The position numbers were made by a program, and so were the translations under genes. From NCBI GenBank assembly GCA_003559215.1, contig PWMF01000214.1:1-37130 (forward strand): DNA of 37,130 bases, written 5' to 3'. The DNA is from Natrialbaceae archaeon (GTDB taxonomy: Archaea; Halobacteriota; Halobacteria; Halobacteriales; Natrialbaceae). The number at the start of each line of letters is the position of its first letter. Position 1 is the stretch's first letter. Positions 6,025 to 36,834 of the stretch are shown piece by piece. Under the pieces are notes generated by a model. The model ran no database searches, was not told where the DNA came from, and was given only the letters and a program-made list of their open reading frames with translations.

Positions 6025-6623
6025 CCTCTTCAGTACCTGAAAACGAGCAAATCCCCCGAACCGACTGCGTTCTCGAGGGAAACGATCGTAGAAGCCGAGT
6101 CACGAACTGTGCTCAATTCATCTATTTCCTATCGGGATCGATCCGTCCGCGACACGGGACGGTTCTCTCTTCGACACTCGACCCCTGTCTCGAGCCGAGT
6201 CGATCCGCGGGTCCGCCGTGTACGTGCCACCTACTCCGATCGAACGGGAACTTTGCCGATCGATCCCGCTCTATGACAGTACTACACGTCAGTAGAAACG
6301 AGGAGGAACGTCGTCAGCAACTACAGTTCAGGCTTCGAAAAGGGTGTTCTCCGTGTGACGTTCGCGTTACCCGTGCCCACTACGACCTCGGCGTTACACG
6401 AGAACTGTCCCGAACGTGTACAGTATCGCGGTTCGGATAGTTCGGCGCGACAAACGGGTTCCGACCGGCACGTAAGCGCCATCTATACGTCTCGGCGGTA
6501 GCGCTGTCTCGAGCGGAGACATGTAGCCTGCAGATACTTACTATCCGGTCTCTGGTTAGCTGTTCCCGTGCACCCGGTGTGTGGCGACGTCGTAGTAGCC
6601 GCTTCGGGTGTGCAGAGCTACCA
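6025..6623. other. 600-base gene-free region
   Basis: No confident gene. A 55-codon plus-strand frame at 6273-6440 is basic and has no promoter I can point to, so I do not call it. No clear TATA box lies at the expected distance from the repeat-protein start at 6624. The element CTTACTATCC near 6536-6545 is the best candidate and would imply a leader of about 55 bases. Confidence 0.45.
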
Positions 6624-15540: not shown

Positions 15541-15569
15541 AATTCGTGTCGATGGTGACGACATGCATC

Positions 15570-16610
15570 ATGGTGGCTGGTAACGAACTACGTGGAATGT
15601 TTGAGGAGATGGTAACGGCACGGTACTACGAGGAACGGCTCCAGGAGGAGTACCTCGAGGGCAAGCAGCCGGCGTTCGATATCTCGGCTGGACCGATTCC
15701 GGGCGAGTTGCACCTCGCCGCGGGCCAGGAGGCCGCCGCCGCGGGCGTCTGTCGACACCTGCGCGACGACGACACCGTGACGGCGCCACACCGGCCCCAC
15801 CACGTCGCGATCGCGAAGGGCGTCGACCTGAAGCGGATGACCGCCGAGATCTTCGGTCGGGAGACCGGGCTGAGCAGCGGGAAGGGGGGCCACATGCATC
15901 TGTTCGATCCCGACGTGGGCTTCGCCTGCAGCGGCATCATCGCCCAGGGCTGTCCGCCCGCGGTCGGCGCGGGGCTCGCGGCGAAGAAACGAAGCGAGGA
16001 CAGCGTGGCCGTCGCCTTCCTCGGCGAGGGCGCGATCAGCCAGGGCGGGTTTCTCGAGTCGCTGAACCTCGCGGCGGTCCGCGAACTGCCCGTAATCTTC
16101 GTGATCGAGGACAACGACTGGGCGATCAGTATGCCCAAGGATCGTGTCACCGACGTCGTGGACGGCTCGCAGCGAGCCGACGGGTTCGATATGCCCGGCA
16201 CCCGCGTCGACTACGACGACGCGACGGCCGTCTACGACGCCGCGAAGGAGGCCGTCGGTCGGGCGCGAGCCGGCAACGGACCGACGCTGCTCGAGGTGCA
16301 GGTCCACCGCCGAATGGGCCACTTCATGGGCGATCCCGAGAGCTACCGCCCGGACGAGGACAAGGAGGCCGCACGGGAGCGGGATTCGATCGAACGACTC
16401 GCCGACGACCTGCGAAGCGAGGGGCTCGCCGACGACGAGCTCGAGGCGATCCGCGAGGACGCCCGCGACCGTGTCGACGAGGCGATCGAGTGGGCCAAGG
16501 AACAGCCCGAACCCGATCCGGAAGCAGCCTACAAGGACGTCTTCGTCAACCCGTCCTCAGGCGTGACGACCGAGGAACCGAACCACGAGCTCGCGGGAGG
16601 TGACGACTGA
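15570..16610 (+). CDS. 2-oxoacid dehydrogenase E1 component, alpha subunit (acetoin/pyruvate type)
   Basis: This thiamine-diphosphate enzyme subunit (346 residues) decarboxylates a 2-oxoacid or acetoin and passes the acyl group to a lipoyl arm. Seen: the thiamine-diphosphate motif opening with GEGAISQGG (152-160) and closing with EDNDWAIS (180-187). There is also SGKGGHMH, which in E1alpha binds the cofactor, and RMGHFMGDPESYR, the region of the phosphorylation loop in eukaryotic E1. The motif has GEGA where GDGA is common. The operon continues with E1beta (TGATG overlap) and a lipoyl protein. Best resemblance is to the acetoin-dehydrogenase-type alpha subunit, but a branched-chain or pyruvate substrate cannot be excluded. 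Confidence 0.9.
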   Translation: MVAGNELRGMFEEMVTARYYEERLQEEYLEGKQPAFDISAGPIPGELHLAAGQEAAAAGVCRHLRDDDTVTAPHRPHHVAIAKGVDLKRMTAEIFGRETGLSSGKGGHMHLFDPDVGFACSGIIAQGCPPAVGAGLAAKKRSEDSVAVAFLGEGAISQGGFLESLNLAAVRELPVIFVIEDNDWAISMPKDRVTDVVDGSQRADGFDMPGTRVDYDDATAVYDAAKEAVGRARAGNGPTLLEVQVHRRMGHFMGDPESYRPDEDKEAARERDSIERLADDLRSEGLADDELEAIREDARDRVDEAIEWAKEQPEPDPEAAYKDVFVNPSSGVTTEEPNHELAGGDD

Positions 16611-17638
16611 TGGCGCAGGAAGAACGACGGCAGGCGATCGAACGCGAACTGACGATGAGCCGCGCGATGGTCGAGGCGATCGCCCACGAGATGCGCGAGG
16701 ACGAGGAGGTGTTCTACATGGGCGAGGACGTCGCCGACTACGGCGGCATCTTCGACAGCACGGAGGGGCTGCTCGAGGAGTTCGGCCGCGACCGGGTGAT
16801 GGACGTCCCGATCAGCGAGACGGCCTACCTCGGCGCGGCCGTCGGCGCCGCACAGGAGGGGATGCGCCCCATCGCGGAGCTGATGTTCGTCGACTTCTTC
16901 GGGGTCGCGATGGACCAGATCTACAACCAGATGGCCAAGAACACCTACATGAGCGGCGGCGCGGTCAACGTCCCGATGGTGTTGACGGCCGCGGTCGGAG
17001 GCACGTACAACGACGCCGCCCAGCACTCCCAGACGCTGTACGGTACCTTCGCCCACCTTCCCGGAATGAAGGTCGTCGTCCCCTCGACGGCCTACGAAGC
17101 GAAGGGGCTGATGCATAATGCGATCCGGGACGACGATCCCGTCGTCTACCTGTTCCACAAGCGCCTGATGGGAATCGGCTGGATGCCCGCCCCTGACGGC
17201 CCGAAGACGCCGGTGCCCGACGAGGAGTATACGATTCCTTTCGGCAGCGCCGACGTCAAACGCGAGGGGGAAGACGCCACCGTCGTCACGCTGGGCCTGC
17301 ACGTCCACCGGGCGCTCGAGGCCGCCGAGACTCTCGCCGAGGACGGCATCGACGCCGAGGTGATCGACCTCCGGACGCTCGTCCCCCTCGACACCGAGAC
17401 GATCCGCGAGTCGGTCGCCAAAACCGGACGGCTCGTCGTCGTCGACGAGGACTACCGGTCCTACGGCGTCACCGGCGAAATAATCGCCAGCGTCGCCGAG
17501 GAGGATCTCGAGGACCTCGAGGACCTCGAGCGGGTCGCGGTGCCCGACGTGCCGCTGCCCTACGCCCGACCCATGGAGAACGAGGTGATTCCTGACGCCG
17601 AGGATATCGAGGACGCCGTTCGTTCCACCCAGTCATGA
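16610..17638 (+). CDS. 2-oxoacid dehydrogenase E1 component, beta subunit
   Basis: This is the 342-residue partner of the alpha subunit; the two form an alpha2beta2 E1. Seen: MGEDVADYGGIFDST near residue 37, the beta-subunit cofactor-binding start; SETAYLGAAVGAA; AAQHSQTLYGTFAHLPGMKV, a hallmark of this family; and the transketolase C-terminal domain with VIDLRTLVPLDTETI and VVDEDYRSYG. The ATG overlaps the TGA of the alpha gene by one base and its own TGA overlaps the lipoyl gene ATG, so translation is coupled. It is of normal length. A missing neighbour is notable: no E2 or E3 gene follows. Confidence 0.93.
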   Translation: MAQEERRQAIERELTMSRAMVEAIAHEMREDEEVFYMGEDVADYGGIFDSTEGLLEEFGRDRVMDVPISETAYLGAAVGAAQEGMRPIAELMFVDFFGVAMDQIYNQMAKNTYMSGGAVNVPMVLTAAVGGTYNDAAQHSQTLYGTFAHLPGMKVVVPSTAYEAKGLMHNAIRDDDPVVYLFHKRLMGIGWMPAPDGPKTPVPDEEYTIPFGSADVKREGEDATVVTLGLHVHRALEAAETLAEDGIDAEVIDLRTLVPLDTETIRESVAKTGRLVVVDEDYRSYGVTGEIIASVAEEDLEDLEDLERVAVPDVPLPYARPMENEVIPDAEDIEDAVRSTQS

Positions 17639-17898
17639 GCGGGAACGACGACCGCGTCGCCGTCGCCGCGAGCGACGCCTGGCCCGACGACGTCGAGGAG
17701 GAGGAAGGCGTCGTCGTCAACTGGTTCGCCCGGGAAGGACGGCAGGTCGAAGAGGGCGAGGCCGTCTGCGAGATTCAGGTCGAGAAGGTAAGCGTCGACG
17801 TGCCCGCCCCCGTCGGCGGAGAGTTGATCGCGATCGAGCGCGACGAGGACGACGAGATCACCCGCGAGGACGTCCTCGCCTACGTCGCCCTCGGTTGA
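17635..17898 (+). CDS. Stand-alone lipoyl-domain protein
   Basis: This 87-residue protein is a single biotinyl/lipoyl domain. It has EEGVVVNWFAREGRQVEEGE in the first half, the attachment turn VEKVSVDV with Lys51, and PVGGELIAIERDED in the second half. It is the size of a free lipoyl carrier, with no subunit-binding or catalytic domain. Coupling by an ATGA overlap to E1beta says it works with this E1. It could carry the acyl group as an H-protein-like shuttle, or supply extra lipoyl arms to the E2 encoded at 35 kb. The turn has EKV rather than the common DKA. Biotin attachment is less likely because no AMKM is present. Confidence 0.88.
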   Translation: MSGNDDRVAVAASDAWPDDVEEEEGVVVNWFAREGRQVEEGEAVCEIQVEKVSVDVPAPVGGELIAIERDEDDEITREDVLAYVALG

Positions 17899-25343: not shown

Positions 25344-25907
25344 TTACTCGACGACGAGCCGCGTCACGAGCGGCACCTCGTTCGTGACGATATCCATCAG
25401 CGGCGAGGTCGCCTCGACGCGCTCGCGCAGTTCCTCGAGACGCTCTTCCGAAGCGTCCGCCTCGATGTGGGTCGTGCAGGTGATCGATTCGTAGCCGGGT
25501 CGGACGTCCTCGTCGAGGCCGAGGAAGCCTCGCAGATCCACATCACCGGTCATCTCGAATCGGAGGTCGTCGAGTTCGATCCCCATGGCCGCGGCGTTTG
25601 CCGCGTAGCCGACGGTCAGACACGAGCCGAGCGCGCCGAGCAGTAACTCGACGGCATTGGGGCCGGTTCGCTCGCCGAGGATCTCCTCGGGTTCGTCGCC
25701 CCGAAGCGTAAACTCCTGCGTATGGATGGTTTCTCCCGCCTGATCGAACTCGTCGATGATGGTCGTCGCCTTCAGCGCGTCCTCCCACTCGGTTTCGGCC
25801 CGAAAGGTGAACGTACCGGCGGCAGCGTCGTCGTCGATCGCCTCCATCGCTCCCTCGAGGGCGGAGACGTCGACGCCGTTGACTGTGGTTTCTTCTCTCG
25901 TCGCCAT
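25344..25907 (-). CDS. OsmC family protein
   Basis: This 187-residue protein is a stand-alone OsmC/Ohr-type thiol protein. Seen: the N-terminal strand region, then GPNAVELLLGALGSCLTV with Glu87 and the peroxidatic Cys96, and a long central helix. At the usual second-cysteine position the sequence is TSPLMDIV, a serine, so this protein is of the one-cysteine type and may have a binding or transfer role rather than the two-cysteine peroxidase cycle. ATG 25907 has a GGTGA site before it; an upstream ATG at 25946 adds 13 residues. It belongs by strand and spacing with the MhqO-like and dehydrogenase genes. It differs from the OsmC domain fused to E2 at 36.4-36.8 kb, which keeps both cysteines. 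Confidence 0.9.
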   Translation of the reverse strand: MATREETTVNGVDVSALEGAMEAIDDDAAAGTFTFRAETEWEDALKATTIIDEFDQAGETIHTQEFTLRGDEPEEILGERTGPNAVELLLGALGSCLTVGYAANAAAMGIELDDLRFEMTGDVDLRGFLGLDEDVRPGYESITCTTHIEADASEERLEELRERVEATSPLMDIVTNEVPLVTRLVVE

Positions 25908-25951
25908 TGTTGACTCACCGGTTTTCCCTTCGATAACCACAATCATAGCCT

Positions 25952-31918: not shown

Positions 31919-32854
31919 TTACGTGTGGCGGTCGAGCAGGTCGTAGCTGCGCTCCCACTCGGCGTCCTCGTCGAAGTAGCGCTCGGCGACCGGCTGGTCG
32001 GGCATCTCGCCGACGGCCTTCTTCTCCTCGGTGTAGGAGGGGCTCTCGTCGTCGACGTAGTACCGACCGGTGAGGACGGTGCCCTCGTTGAGGACGTCCT
32101 CGGTTTCGCGCATCATCCGGGCGGCCTCCTCGCGGTCGTTGACGTCGAACTCGTAGTCGTCGGACTCCTGAACGTCGATGTAGGGGACGTACTGCCGGGC
32201 GTCCTTGTTCCAGGTCGGACACTGGGTCAGGAAGTCGACGTGAGCGAAGCCGTCGTGCTCGATCGCTTCCTTGATGATCTCCTTGGCCTGGTTGGGGTTG
32301 ACCGCGGCGGTGCGAGCGATGTACGTCGCACCGGCGTTCAACGACGTCGAAAGCGGGCGAAGCGGCGACTTCGCGCTACCGGAGGGTTGGGTCTTGGACT
32401 TGTGACCCTTGGGGCTCGTGGGTGAGGTCTGGCCCTTCGTCAGCCCGAAGATCTCGTTGTTGAACACGATATACGTGATGTCGTGGTTCTCCCGGGCCGT
32501 GTGGATCCAGTGGTTGCCGCCGATCCCGTAGCCGTCGCCGTCACCGCCGGCGGCGATGACCTCGAGTTCGGGGTTGGCCAGCTTCGCCGCACGGGCCACG
32601 GGCAGCGAGCGGCCGTGGATCGTGTGGAAGCCGTACGTGTCGAGATAGCTGTTCAGCTTGCCCGAACAGCCGATCCCGGTGACCGTCAGGACCTCCTCGG
32701 GGGTCTTGCCGACCTCCGGGAGGGCCTGTTTCAGCGACTTCAGTACGCCGAAGTCGCCACAGCCTGGACACCAGGTCGGCTGCGGTTCGACGCCGGGCGT
32801 GAACTCGTCCCGGTCGATCTCTCGTTCCTCACCGATTGCGTTGAATGCACTCAT
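31919..32854 (-). CDS. porB: Pyruvate:ferredoxin oxidoreductase beta subunit
   Basis: This 311-residue subunit carries thiamine diphosphate and an iron-sulphur cluster in the two-subunit haloarchaeal enzyme. Seen: WCPGCGDFG with Cys29 and Cys32, IGCSGK with Cys63, and a fourth at Cys212 (QCPTWN). GDGDGYGIGGNH at 104-115 is the diphosphate-binding motif, with GLTKGQTSPTSP after it. The enzyme oxidises pyruvate with CoA and passes electrons to ferredoxin. Three bases separate it from porA. The choice of pyruvate rather than 2-oxoglutarate rests on partner length and on resemblance to Halobacterium PorB. Confidence 0.92.
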   Translation of the reverse strand: MSAFNAIGEEREIDRDEFTPGVEPQPTWCPGCGDFGVLKSLKQALPEVGKTPEEVLTVTGIGCSGKLNSYLDTYGFHTIHGRSLPVARAAKLANPELEVIAAGGDGDGYGIGGNHWIHTARENHDITYIVFNNEIFGLTKGQTSPTSPKGHKSKTQPSGSAKSPLRPLSTSLNAGATYIARTAAVNPNQAKEIIKEAIEHDGFAHVDFLTQCPTWNKDARQYVPYIDVQESDDYEFDVNDREEAARMMRETEDVLNEGTVLTGRYYVDDESPSYTEEKKAVGEMPDQPVAERYFDEDAEWERSYDLLDRHT

Positions 32855-32857
32855 GGA

Positions 32858-34762
32858 TTAGTCACCTGCAGCGGGTTCGATTCGTACCTGTGCGGACGGT
32901 TCGCGGTCCTCGTCGGCGACGTTGACCTCGTAGCCTTCAACGATCTCCGCCGGCTCGAACGGGTTGCCGTTGTACTTCAGCAGGCTGGTCATCTTGTCGC
33001 CGAAGCGGCCGAGTTCCTTCTGGATCAGGCCGCGGAACTGGGCGGTGGCGTTCATCTCGACGACCATCGCCTCGTCGACGCTCTCGAGGAACTCCGTCAC
33101 CTCGGCCTCGGCGAACGGCATCATGTCGGAGACGCTGATGCCTTTCACCGAGTGGCCGCTGTCGTTCAGCCGTTCGACGGCCTCGACGACGGCGCCCTTG
33201 CTCGAGCCCCAGGTGATGATACCGTACTCGGCGTCTTCGTCGCCGAAGTAGGTCTGGTTGGAGTCGTGTTCTTCGTCGAGCTCCTCGCGGATCGAATCGA
33301 GTTTCTCGATGCGGCGGGTCATCTGGTAGACCCGGTTGTCCGGGTCCTCGCTGATGTGCCCGACGGGCGAGTGCTCGTTCCCGGTCGCGAGGTAGCGTCC
33401 GCCCTTCTGGCCGGGCAGCGAGCGCTTGCTGACGTTCTTCTCGTTGTCCTCGTAGCCGAAGCGCTCGAACTTGCCGGAGTTGTCGTGTGCGGCCTCCTTG
33501 AGTTCCTCCTCGGTGAGGGTCGTGCCCAGTCCCGGCTCGGGCTCGCGGTCGAAGAACTCGACGTCGACGTTCTTGTTCTCGCCGGAGAGCTTCTGGTCGT
33601 AGATGATAATCGTCGGGATCTGGTACTCCCAGGCGATGTGGAAGGCGAGCCGGGTCTGCTCGTAGGCCTCCTCGATGGTTCCGGGCGCGAAGACGACCCG
33701 CGAGGAGTCGCCCTGGCTCGTGTAGAGGACGAACTCGAGGTCGCCCTGTTCGGGTTTCGTCGGCATCCCGGTCGAGGGGCCGGCGCGCATAGACTCGACG
33801 AGCACGAGCGGCGTCTCGGTCATCTCGGCGAGACCGAGCGGTTCGCTCATCAGGGCGAAGCCACCCCCGGAGGAACCGGACATGGCTTTCGCGCCGGCGT
33901 GGCTCGCGCCGACCGCGAGCGCCGCGGCGGCGATCTCGTCCTCGACCTGTTCGGAGACCCCCCCGATGTCGGGGAAGTTCTGGCTGAGGATGGTGAACAC
34001 GTCGGTCCACGGCGTCATCGGGTAGCCGGCGATGAAGCGACAGCCGCCGTCGATCGCGCCGTAGGCGATCGCGTTCGAGCCCGACAGCAGCGCCTGTTCG
34101 GTGTCGTGTTCGCCCGTCGGGACGCGGAGATCGTGGGTCGTCTCGAACTCCTCGTCGACCATCTCGTAGGCCTCGTGGAGGATCTCGAGGTTCGCCTCGA
34201 GGATGTCGTCGCTCATCGCGCCCGACATCAGATCCTCGATGTGCTCGAGCTCCATGTCGAGCAGTCCCGCCGTGATACCGACGCCGGCGGTGTTTCGCAT
34301 GACCTCGCGGCCGTGTTCCTTGGCGAGGCCGCGGAGATCGACCGGGTAGACGTGCCAGTCGTTCTCCTCGGCGCGCTCCTCCAAGTCGAGGTAGGCGACA
34401 TCGTCCTCGCTGAGCAGTCCCTCGTCGTAGACGATGACACCGCCCTCGCGGAGTTCGTCCAGGTTCTCCGAGAGGGGTTTGATCTCCTCGTTGCCGTAGT
34501 AGGCCTCCTCCTGTGGGTTCCGAGCGAAGGAGTCCCCCAACGCGAGGAGGAAGTTGTAGCCGTCGCCCCGTGACTGTACCTCGTCTGCTGCCGCCCGAAT
34601 CTCGACGTAGGTGTGGCCACCGCGGATCCGCGACGGATAGTGGCGGTGTGTGAACACGTCGAGCCCCGAGCGCATCAGCGCCTTCGCGAAATTCTGGCTC
34701 GTCGAGTCGATTCCGTCTCCGGAACCGCCTGAGACTCGCCAGATGAGTTCGTCATCGCTCAT
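32858..34762 (-). CDS. porA: Pyruvate:ferredoxin oxidoreductase alpha subunit
   Basis: This 634-residue subunit is a fusion of the gamma-type domain (about 1-190) and the alpha-type domain. The gamma part has IWRVSGGSGDGIDSTSQNFA and HRHYPSRIRGGHTYVEIR in its first 60 residues. The alpha part has FIAGYPMTPWTDVFTIL, the pyruvate/cofactor site where many enzymes read YPITPS, and SGSSGGGFALMSEPLGLAEM. Length favours PorA over KorA, which is shorter. ATG 34762 starts MSDDELIWR, the conserved haloarchaeal start; the frame runs to 34864 through non-conserved sequence. It is divergent from the E2-OsmC gene, with 257 bases between the starts, so the two may share control of acetyl-CoA formation. Confidence 0.93.
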   Translation of the reverse strand: MSDDELIWRVSGGSGDGIDSTSQNFAKALMRSGLDVFTHRHYPSRIRGGHTYVEIRAAADEVQSRGDGYNFLLALGDSFARNPQEEAYYGNEEIKPLSENLDELREGGVIVYDEGLLSEDDVAYLDLEERAEENDWHVYPVDLRGLAKEHGREVMRNTAGVGITAGLLDMELEHIEDLMSGAMSDDILEANLEILHEAYEMVDEEFETTHDLRVPTGEHDTEQALLSGSNAIAYGAIDGGCRFIAGYPMTPWTDVFTILSQNFPDIGGVSEQVEDEIAAAALAVGASHAGAKAMSGSSGGGFALMSEPLGLAEMTETPLVLVESMRAGPSTGMPTKPEQGDLEFVLYTSQGDSSRVVFAPGTIEEAYEQTRLAFHIAWEYQIPTIIIYDQKLSGENKNVDVEFFDREPEPGLGTTLTEEELKEAAHDNSGKFERFGYEDNEKNVSKRSLPGQKGGRYLATGNEHSPVGHISEDPDNRVYQMTRRIEKLDSIREELDEEHDSNQTYFGDEDAEYGIITWGSSKGAVVEAVERLNDSGHSVKGISVSDMMPFAEAEVTEFLESVDEAMVVEMNATAQFRGLIQKELGRFGDKMTSLLKYNGNPFEPAEIVEGYEVNVADEDREPSAQVRIEPAAGD

Positions 34763-34991
34763 TGAGATCAGTGGCCAGTTGGCCAGCCGTATCCAGATTT
34801 TGGTCTCACCGTGCCTAAAGCCTTTGCTATAGATTATCATGCATCTATCGTGAAGAATGTACAACCATCCAATTTAGGCCGAGAGTCTCGCGCGGTTAAC
34901 AGTAAGGACGCCGACCGATAGCGAACGATTCGGTAGCCGGTATCCGGACGGCCGGAACTCGTTTCCCCAGGGGTTCCCGCGACCGGTACGC

Positions 34992-35019: not shown

Positions 35020-36834
35020 ATGGGGTATGTTATCAAGATGCCGAAACTCGGGCTGGAGATGGAACGCGGAGAGCTCCTCGAGTGGGCGGTCGACGAGGGC
35101 GAGACGCTCGAGGAGGGCGAACTCGTCGCCGAGGTCGAATCCGAGAAAAGTATCGGCGAGATCGAGGCCCGGGAACACGGCGTTCTCCGACGGACCTACC
35201 TCGAGCCGGGCGAGACGGTGCCGCCGGGAACGCCGATCGGAATCGTCGCCCCCGCGGACGACGACATCGGCGACCTCGAGGCCGAGGTCGACGCCGAACT
35301 CGAGGACGTCGACGCCGGTGACGCTGCCGACACGACCGCGGACGCGGGCTCGGGCTCGAGCGCCGAACCCGCGACCGACGGCGCCGCGTCGGGGACGGCG
35401 ACGGGATCGACCGACGCGGGCAAGGTCTCGCCCCGCGCACGGAAACGGGCCGAGGAGCTCGACGTCGACCCCGTGACCGTCGAGGGAACGGGCTATCAGG
35501 GGGCGATCACCGAGGAGGACGTCGAACGAGCGGCCGAGGCCGACGAGTCGGGGGCTGACGTCCAGGCCTCCCCGCGAGCCCGCAAGCGCGCCGAGGAACT
35601 GGGCGTCGACCTCGCGACCGTCGAGGGCACGGGCTATCAGGGATCGGTCACCGAGGAGGACGTCGAGGCGGCCGCCGAGTCGGCCGACGACGCCGGACGG
35701 ACCCTTCTCGAGGAGCGCCCGTTCGACGGGATGCGCCGGACCATCGCTTCGCGGCTCGGCGAGAGCTACCGCGAGGCCGTCCATGTCACGACCCACCGCG
35801 AGGCCGACGCCGAGGCGCTGTTCGACGCCGTCGACGCCGCGGACGACGCCCTCGAAGCCGACGTCTCCGTCCAGGACGTGCTCCTGCTCGCGATTTCGGC
35901 GGCCCTCGAGGATCACCCCGAGTTCAACGCGACCTTCGAGGACGATACCCATCGACTCTGGACCGAGCACAACCTCGGAGTCGCCGTCGACATCGAGCAG
36001 GGGCTCATCGCTCCCGTCCTCCGGAACGTCGACGAGAAATCGCTCGAGGCGGTCGCCATCGAGCGCCGCGAGCTCGTCGGCGCGGCGACCGAGGGCGAGT
36101 ACACGATGGACGATCTGCGAGGCGGGACGTTCACGGTGACGAACCTCGGCGTCCTCGGGGTCGAGTCGTTCGATCCGATCATCAACCCGCCCCAGGTCGC
36201 CATCCTCGGGGTCGACGCCATCGCCGAGCGACCGACGCGGGGCGCCGACGACGGCGTCGAGTGGCGCCGTCACCTCCCGTTCGATCTCTCCTTCGACCAC
36301 CGGGTCGTCGACGGCGCCGACGCAGCCAGGTTCCTCGGGACGCTAGTCGAACGCATCGAGGAGCCGTGGTCGCTGCTGCCGGACGAGGTCGCCGCTGAGG
36401 CCGGCGAGCGAGCGGACACGGCCGAAACAGAGATGCCCGGTCGAACCGTCAGCGCCTCGAATCCCGAGGGGATGGCAGGCACGATTGGGGCCGGATCCTT
36501 CGAGTGGCGCTACGACGAGCCCGAGGACGCCGGCGGGACGGAGACGGGCCCGACGCCGGTCGACGTCTTCCTCGGCGGGCTGGCCGCCTGTCTCTCGCTC
36601 TCGATTCGGTTCCAGGCCGAGAAGCGCAACGCCGCCGTCGGCGAGATCGACGTCACGACCGACGCCGATCCCGAACACGGGGCCGTCGAAGAGATCGCGG
36701 CGACGGTTCGCCTCGAGAGCGACGCCGACGACGAAACCCTCGAGCGGATCGTCGAGGTCGGCGAGCGGGGCTGTCACGTCTCGCAGCTGCTCCGCGAGGA
36801 TCTGCGGCTCGAGCTCTCCTGGGAGCGGCACTGA
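35020..36834 (+). CDS. Dihydrolipoamide acyltransferase (E2) fused to an OsmC domain
   Basis: This 604-residue protein is an E2 of a 2-oxoacid dehydrogenase complex with an extra domain. Order: lipoyl domain 1-80 with Lys43 (ESEKSIGEI), two subunit-binding domains at about 136-172 and 183-219 (both SPRARKRAEEL...GTGYQG), and acyltransferase domain about 230-455 with His427 and Asp431 in DHRVVDG. An OsmC domain follows at about 472-604, with FLGGLAACLSL (Cys524) and ERGCHVSQLL (Cys585). The frame is continuous and all active residues are present. Normal E2 ends near 455-470. Ohr/OsmC proteins are known to accept electrons from lipoylated proteins, so the fusion would put a thiol peroxidase beside its donor; that is inference. 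The matching E1 genes may be those at 15.6-17.6 kb. Confidence 0.92.
   Translation: MGYVIKMPKLGLEMERGELLEWAVDEGETLEEGELVAEVESEKSIGEIEAREHGVLRRTYLEPGETVPPGTPIGIVAPADDDIGDLEAEVDAELEDVDAGDAADTTADAGSGSSAEPATDGAASGTATGSTDAGKVSPRARKRAEELDVDPVTVEGTGYQGAITEEDVERAAEADESGADVQASPRARKRAEELGVDLATVEGTGYQGSVTEEDVEAAAESADDAGRTLLEERPFDGMRRTIASRLGESYREAVHVTTHREADAEALFDAVDAADDALEADVSVQDVLLLAISAALEDHPEFNATFEDDTHRLWTEHNLGVAVDIEQGLIAPVLRNVDEKSLEAVAIERRELVGAATEGEYTMDDLRGGTFTVTNLGVLGVESFDPIINPPQVAILGVDAIAERPTRGADDGVEWRRHLPFDLSFDHRVVDGADAARFLGTLVERIEEPWSLLPDEVAAEAGERADTAETEMPGRTVSASNPEGMAGTIGAGSFEWRYDEPEDAGGTETGPTPVDVFLGGLAACLSLSIRFQAEKRNAAVGEIDVTTDADPEHGAVEEIAATVRLESDADDETLERIVEVGERGCHVSQLLREDLRLELSWERH

Follow-up and report, generated by a model that had tools for sequence, protein, structure and literature searches.

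What does an OsmC domain do at the C-terminus of a lipoyl-bearing E2 acyltransferase? A single gene near the end of a haloarchaeal contig encodes this arrangement; the window, as we call the whole stretch analysed, comprises 37,130 nucleotides of contig PWMF01000214.1 from a Natrialbaceae archaeon. An earlier note on this DNA proposed that the swinging lipoyl arm of the E2 core reduces the disulfide of a tethered OsmC peroxidase, the complex acting as an NADH-driven hydroperoxide reductase or as a guard of lipoyl thiols. Reduction of Ohr/OsmC proteins by lipoylated proteins, on which this proposal draws, is described in the retrieved excerpt of a published source (PMC8945050, citing Cussiol 2010).

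The fusion gene and its genomic context

The E2–OsmC fusion is real. The open reading frame and Pfam confirm the layout given in the earlier note, with lipoyl, two subunit-binding, acyltransferase and OsmC domains in one frame (Table 1). Biotin_lipoyl matches residues 5–74 (46.9 bits, cut-off 22.1), E3_binding matches twice, 2-oxoacid_dh covers residues 232–453 and OsmC covers residues 506–599 (60.4 bits, cut-off 27.5) of the 604-residue protein. Lys43, His427, Cys524 and Cys585 had been placed correctly and are all invariant in an alignment of 35 proteins including that of the window. With this alignment as input, an AlphaFold2 model of the fusion reached a mean pLDDT of 83.6; averaged over ten-residue blocks, values were 92–97 in the lipoyl domain and 84–96 in most of the OsmC domain.

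Table 1. Features of the window discussed in the text
Feature	Position	Strand	Basis or remark
Second E1 cluster: E1a (15546-16610), E1b (16610-17638), 87-aa stand-alone lipoyl protein (17635-17898)	15546-17898	+	
2-oxoacid:ferredoxin oxidoreductase beta subunit	31919-32854	-	
2-oxoacid:ferredoxin oxidoreductase alpha subunit (korA type), divergent neighbour	32858-34864	-	Start codon may lie further in
E2–OsmC fusion gene, 604 aa	35020-36834	+	ATG at 35020, TGA at 36832-36834
Lipoyl domain, residues 1-80; Lys43 codon 35146-35148	35020-35259	+	Pfam
First E3/peripheral-subunit-binding domain, residues ~136-171	35425-35532	+	Pfam; limits set by eye
Second E3/peripheral-subunit-binding domain, residues 181-216	35560-35667	+	Pfam (best E3_binding match)
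E2 acyltransferase, residues 232-453; DHRVVDG motif, His427 codon 36298-36300	35713-36378	+	Pfam
OsmC domain, YhfA type by residues, 469-604	36424-36831	+	Pfam and residue comparison
OsmC cysteine codons, Cys524 and Cys585	36589-36591, 36772-36774	+	
VOC/glyoxalase-like gene, truncated by contig end	36859-37130	-	Pfam score of the piece below cut-off

A search for this domain order across archaeal genomes, as the earlier note had suggested, returned full-length homologues from several haloarchaeal families. Among the matches listed, at least 21 align across residues 1–603 with 55–91% identity, and the same order occurs in Natronococcus, Natronorubrum, Natrinema, Halobiforma, Natronolimnohabitans, Halomarina, Natribaculum, Halogranum and Halegenticoccus. 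In a class-wide sample, 63 of 391 genomes carry 65 orthologous OsmC copies (matches down to E 3.1e-20, plus genome G117 at 3.1e-14 and minus a remnant in G008), a count whose thresholds may miss divergent copies; 50 of the copies lie in frames of at least 570 residues, 10 are reduced, 4 are separate and 1 consists of core plus OsmC. Combined with other fetched loci, the sample yields 73 distinct OsmC sequences, namely 57 full forms, 11 reduced, 4 separate and 1 core-plus-OsmC. Left out before counting were seven duplicates by C-terminal sequence, the decayed remnant of G008 (L050), a weak 33% OsmC match (L107), the second OsmC ORF of L122 (28% identity) and weaker OsmC paralogues.

One unbroken frame encodes this domain order in 57 of the 73 orthologues, the window included, which rules out a fusion created by sequencing error, while the class-wide distribution and the conserved OsmC cysteines rule out a decayed oddity of one strain. 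Both the lipoyl lysine and the DHRxx[DN]G acyltransferase motif are kept in all 57 full forms. We found no earlier description of an E2–OsmC fusion in the open-access literature, which misses most subscription papers.

Two further sets of sequences were seen during the survey. The remnant in G008 (L050:6593-6982 and 6315-6554) is a decayed extra copy: what is left of its OsmC is broken, has about 65% identity to that of the window, and lies beside a VOC-like piece. More distant E2–OsmC fusions (L102, L104 and L105, in G324, G141 and G320) lie beside a different E1 pair (51–57% identity) and lack AcoX.

In relatives, the VOC gene is followed by AcoX-like, E1b and E1a genes; the window genome has its own E1a, E1b and AcoX on contig C161 and its E3 (Lpd) gene on contig C97. 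Of the 56 full loci besides that of the window, 49 have E1a at 60% identity or more, 50 have E1b, 48 the AcoX-like gene and 21 VOC. The AcoX-like protein gives a NAD_kinase match in Pfam, and we take AcoX to be the name of this NAD-kinase-fold cluster protein. Eight full loci lack it, and the E1 of some of these is more distant; the fusion therefore also occurs outside AcoX clusters. The korA gene was found in 27/56 full, 7/11 reduced and 4/4 separate-OsmC loci. An E3 model was matched in all 20 genomes searched (19 above the cut-off), a lipoate-ligase-type domain in 17/17, and LipA above the cut-off in 16/17.

The protein thus has a lipoyl lysine, an E3-binding domain and the acyltransferase His/Asp motif, in a genome that encodes an E1 partner and E3. 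Given the cluster genes, E3 and the lipoylation genes, it is therefore an E2 with an added domain and not a stray fusion. It is a working-looking E2 of an acetoin-dehydrogenase-like lipoyl complex, to which we assign no substrate. The E1a of a relative scored below the cut-off for PDH models. In the excerpt available from PMC8305020, haloarchaeal oxidative decarboxylation is linked to ferredoxin, and the substrates of most haloarchaeal NAD-type dehydrogenase homologues are said to have escaped identification. The suggestion that such a complex serves redox defence more than catabolism found no support, as E1 genes lie in the cluster and the E2 motif is intact.

The window also contains a second E1 cluster (Table 1), beside which no E2 core was found. 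Its E1a occurs in 128 of the 391 genomes: a stand-alone core of this type lies within 6 kb of it in 31, the core is elsewhere in 51 (50 of them in frames of more than 440 residues) and neither is found in 46 at E 1e-60, in a survey that scored at most seven candidates per genome. None of the 31 genomes with a private core also has a long-frame core (Fisher p 7e-9, kinship ignored). The E2–OsmC core may consequently serve two E1 systems; since 46 of the 128 genomes have neither core, such sharing is not the whole story.

Residues and class of the OsmC domain

Cys524 and Cys585 are both present in all 73 distinct orthologues. The roles of the catalytic Arg and Glu of Ohr are described in the excerpt available from PMC5962072. 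When the orthologues were aligned to Ohr structures, the column of the catalytic Arg (Xylella Arg19) corresponded to Met485 in the window and held Met in 42, Leu in 17 and Arg in 3 of the 73 sequences, the three with Arg all being reduced forms (L098, L100 and L101). The column of the catalytic Glu (Xylella Glu51) corresponded to Val514 and held Val in 68, Ile in 3 and Pro in 2. One position further, at 515, Asp or Glu is found in 73/73, and Arg583 in 70/73. As 48 of the 73 sequences have an Arg somewhere within residues 480–490, a shifted catalytic Arg is possible in relatives; the window has none in this stretch.

The NCBIfam Ohr/OsmC models TIGR03561 and TIGR03562 gave 26.1 and 19.8 bits, against cut-offs of 88.85 and 85.8. 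The model NF008009 (PRK10738), which we take to be the YhfA equivalog, yielded no match to the window domain with an E of 1 or less and gave one relative 15.6 bits against 138. In a profile search of solved structures, the Ohr-named chains 6mjn, 3eer and 2bjo outscored 1ml8, presumably the E. coli YhfA structure. Among solved structures, the window domain itself matched 9wo1 best; this 400-residue OsmC chain ranked third for the profile. Its size suits the esterase–OsmC proteins of PMC5113044, to which it may belong.

Fold and cysteines thus make this an OsmC domain, and to that extent "peroxidase-like" was an apt description; the Ohr/OsmC signature fails, with Glu missing in 73/73 sequences and Arg in 70/73, among them the window, and with NCBIfam scores far below cut-off, so that the reading as a peroxidase is not supported. 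YhfA proteins, according to the retrieved excerpt of PMC8945050, lack the catalytic Arg and Glu of Ohr, keep the two cysteines and have no established function. By its residues, not by overall similarity, the domain is accordingly of the YhfA type.

The window holds a second OsmC-family gene, at 25344-25946 on the reverse strand (200 aa, Pfam 68.1 bits).

Retention of the OsmC domain and loss of the complex

Eleven loci in 11 genomes encode a lipoyl-like stub joined to OsmC and nothing else of the complex. The nine of these proteins with a clear start have 216–262 residues. E1a, E1b and AcoX are found in 0/11 of the reduced loci, and neither an E3-binding domain nor an E2 core was found there. 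An E1a orthologue is missing genome-wide in 10 of the 11 genomes, where the best match reaches at most 41% identity; the eleventh, G329, has a full cluster elsewhere. Leaving G329 and G010 aside, 0/9 of the reduced genomes are among the 82 AcoX-positive genomes. Seven reduced loci (L088–L091 and L096–L098) still have korAB and aroC next to them, as in the full locus.

Such small lipoyl–OsmC proteins could be taken to support a lipoyl–OsmC couple. This was overturned by the lysine, which is replaced in every one of them (by S, A, T, G, R or H), both OsmC cysteines being kept. Clusters of the Haloterrigena type, represented by four distinct sequences, encode OsmC in a gene of its own. Since OsmC persists where acyl transfer, E3 docking and the arm have all gone, its function needs no lipoyl group in cis, and the dependence on its own lipoyl arm implied by the earlier note is not supported.

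On the OsmC-domain tree, the reduced state takes eight changes, at least six of them forced by starred branches; the tree rests on 135 columns and has many open forks and long branches among some reduced rows. A single origin of the reduced form is rejected (AU p 7e-9 against one clade). Two-state trees alone give no direction, and we argue for loss from the vestigial stub and from nesting. Two loci look like intermediates: L122, a full form that keeps its core and lysine but has a broken AcoX and lacks a neighbouring E1, and L052, in which the lipoyl lysine is lost and the E2 motif intact. Having been kept repeatedly after loss of the complex, the OsmC domain probably serves a function in its own right.

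The stub is less conserved than the domain that it accompanies: identities in two same-genus reduced pairs are 54 and 64% for the stub but 82 and 80% for OsmC. In eight full–full pairs, by contrast, the lipoyl domain is conserved like OsmC (82–95% versus 76–93%). The dN/dS ratios of the stub (0.28 and 0.25 within a genus, 0.23 and 0.58 for two wider reduced pairs) overlap those of the full-form lipoyl domain (0.05–0.30) and do not by themselves demonstrate relaxed selection. A model of the reduced form L088, searched against solved structures, still shows a lipoyl-type barrel. Because the barrel is kept and dN/dS is not clearly above that of full-form lipoyl domains, the stub seems to be under some constraint and may have some other role.

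The complex, for its part, does not need OsmC. Of the 82 AcoX-positive genomes, 35 have no OsmC orthologue; 30 of these loci were inspected, and in 15 the E2 motif is intact. The His/Asp motif is lost from the E2 of 20 inspected AcoX clusters, and all 20 contain a gene for an HSL-type alpha/beta hydrolase; this gene is found in 0/15 intact-E2 clusters without OsmC, 0/56 full fusions and 0/11 reduced loci. The 20 dead-E2 loci count as 19 distinct ones, as the OsmC sequences of L043 and L095 are identical; in L092 and L167 the E2 frames are partly broken or masked, and the lipoyl lysine was not read in them. On the E1b tree, the dead-E2 state needs five changes, at least three of them forced.

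In two loci beside E1a, a lipoyl domain is fused to the HSL-type hydrolase (L172:11920-13539, which also has an E3-binding domain, and L167:9335-10948), and in Haloterrigena salina a stand-alone relative (L043:6971-7924) is encoded upstream of the dead E2. Bacterial AcoC proteins have a lipoyl–hydrolase layout; L172 matches PRK14875 in its lipoyl and E3-binding part only. The pairing of dead E2 and hydrolase suggests an acid-releasing version of the complex.

Possible functions and comparison with known systems

We favor, at about even confidence, a two-cysteine OsmC module that rides on the E2, is separable from it, probably performs cysteine redox chemistry and outlives the complex. It would cycle between dithiol and disulfide at Cys524 and Cys585 and would act on a small oxidized or electrophilic metabolite. 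Electrons would come from lipoyl groups and dihydrolipoamide dehydrogenase where these are present, and in cis in the fusion. The module can do without the lipoyl arm of its own chain and outlasts the complex, and the fusion would serve co-location with the lipoyl system. Delivery of electrons from lipoyl groups in trans is possible, because E3, lipoate-ligase-type and LipA genes were found in the genomes searched; cis transfer within the full fusion is likewise possible. The word "redox" is drawn from the two conserved cysteines, since the YhfA class has no known activity.

The tethered peroxidase of the earlier note retains some support: donor and acceptor share one conserved chain in 57 of the 73 sequences with the lipoyl lysine intact in every full form, the E3, ligase and LipA genes are at hand, and the domain's best matches among solved structures include Ohr chains. 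We nevertheless consider it unlikely. The catalytic residues of Ohr are missing, the 11 reduced proteins keep OsmC without the lysine, and conservation of this lysine is expected from E2 function alone, being seen also in 15/15 intact E2s that lack OsmC. In the excerpt available from PMC5113044, moreover, an esterase–OsmC protein was inactive on cumene hydroperoxide and H2O2, in an assay with DTT and not lipoamide.

The OsmC domain might instead handle a thioester or an electrophile, in parallel to the esterase–OsmC proteins and to the dead-E2 hydrolases. The rank of 9wo1 as best match of the window domain and the distribution of the HSL-type hydrolase agree with such acyl or carbonyl chemistry; however, no catalytic motif beyond the two cysteines is seen, and OsmC and hydrolase occur together only in Haloterrigena-type clusters among the loci examined, which leaves this reading rather improbable. 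Thiamine enzymes are subject to peracid side reactions, and disposal of a product of the adjoining thiamine enzymes, for instance a peracid formed from O2 and an E1 or KorAB carbanion, would explain why the domain is joined to E2 and why korAB lies divergently beside it, at reduced loci as well, and would fit the korA counts given above; we doubt it to a similar degree, since all korA-bearing loci with G handles belong to the family of the window and may reflect simple synteny, reduced loci L051 and L099–L101 lack korA, and no residue signature speaks for it.

Our preferred reading of a separable cysteine-redox module can be set in a wider, more tentative picture: haloarchaea may possess a lipoyl system with a swappable end-station, in which an acyltransferase core is the usual station, an HSL-type hydrolase replaces a dead core, and an orphan OsmC domain rides the core and is kept when the rest is lost. 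One E2 core would then be common to two E1 systems, and the fusion would offer a handle on YhfA function. A lineage in which OsmC became joined to a lipoyl enzyme and, on the OsmC-domain tree, was released again at least six times, always with loss of the lysine, tells the domain's requirements from what it can do without, and the full and reduced strains give a matched set for a direct test of OsmC function. There is also a caution here, in that two cysteines and a lipoyl domain in one chain need not mean a lipoyl peroxidase.

Compared with the E2 of 2-oxoacid and acetoin dehydrogenases, the fusion protein shares the lipoyl lysine, E3-binding, an acyltransferase with DHRVVDG, and accompanying E1a, E1b and AcoX-like genes; it differs in having two E3-binding domains and the C-terminal OsmC domain, and its E1 genes are convergent, on the opposite strand. 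With Ohr/OsmC peroxidases it has in common the Pfam OsmC fold and the two conserved cysteines; unlike them, it lacks the catalytic Glu, lacks the Arg in the window and in 70/73 sequences, falls below the NCBIfam cut-offs and is fused to an E2. The likeness to YhfA-type OsmC proteins lies in keeping both cysteines without the Arg and Glu of Ohr, whereas the fusion to E2 sets it apart, and its profile scores no closer to 1ml8, our presumed YhfA, than to Ohr. The esterase–OsmC fusions of the EstO/EstRM family, as the excerpt available from PMC5113044 describes them, likewise carry a C-terminal OsmC-like domain with the cysteines kept on an acyl-handling enzyme, but they are bacterial and their partner is an alpha/beta hydrolase, where here it is an E2.
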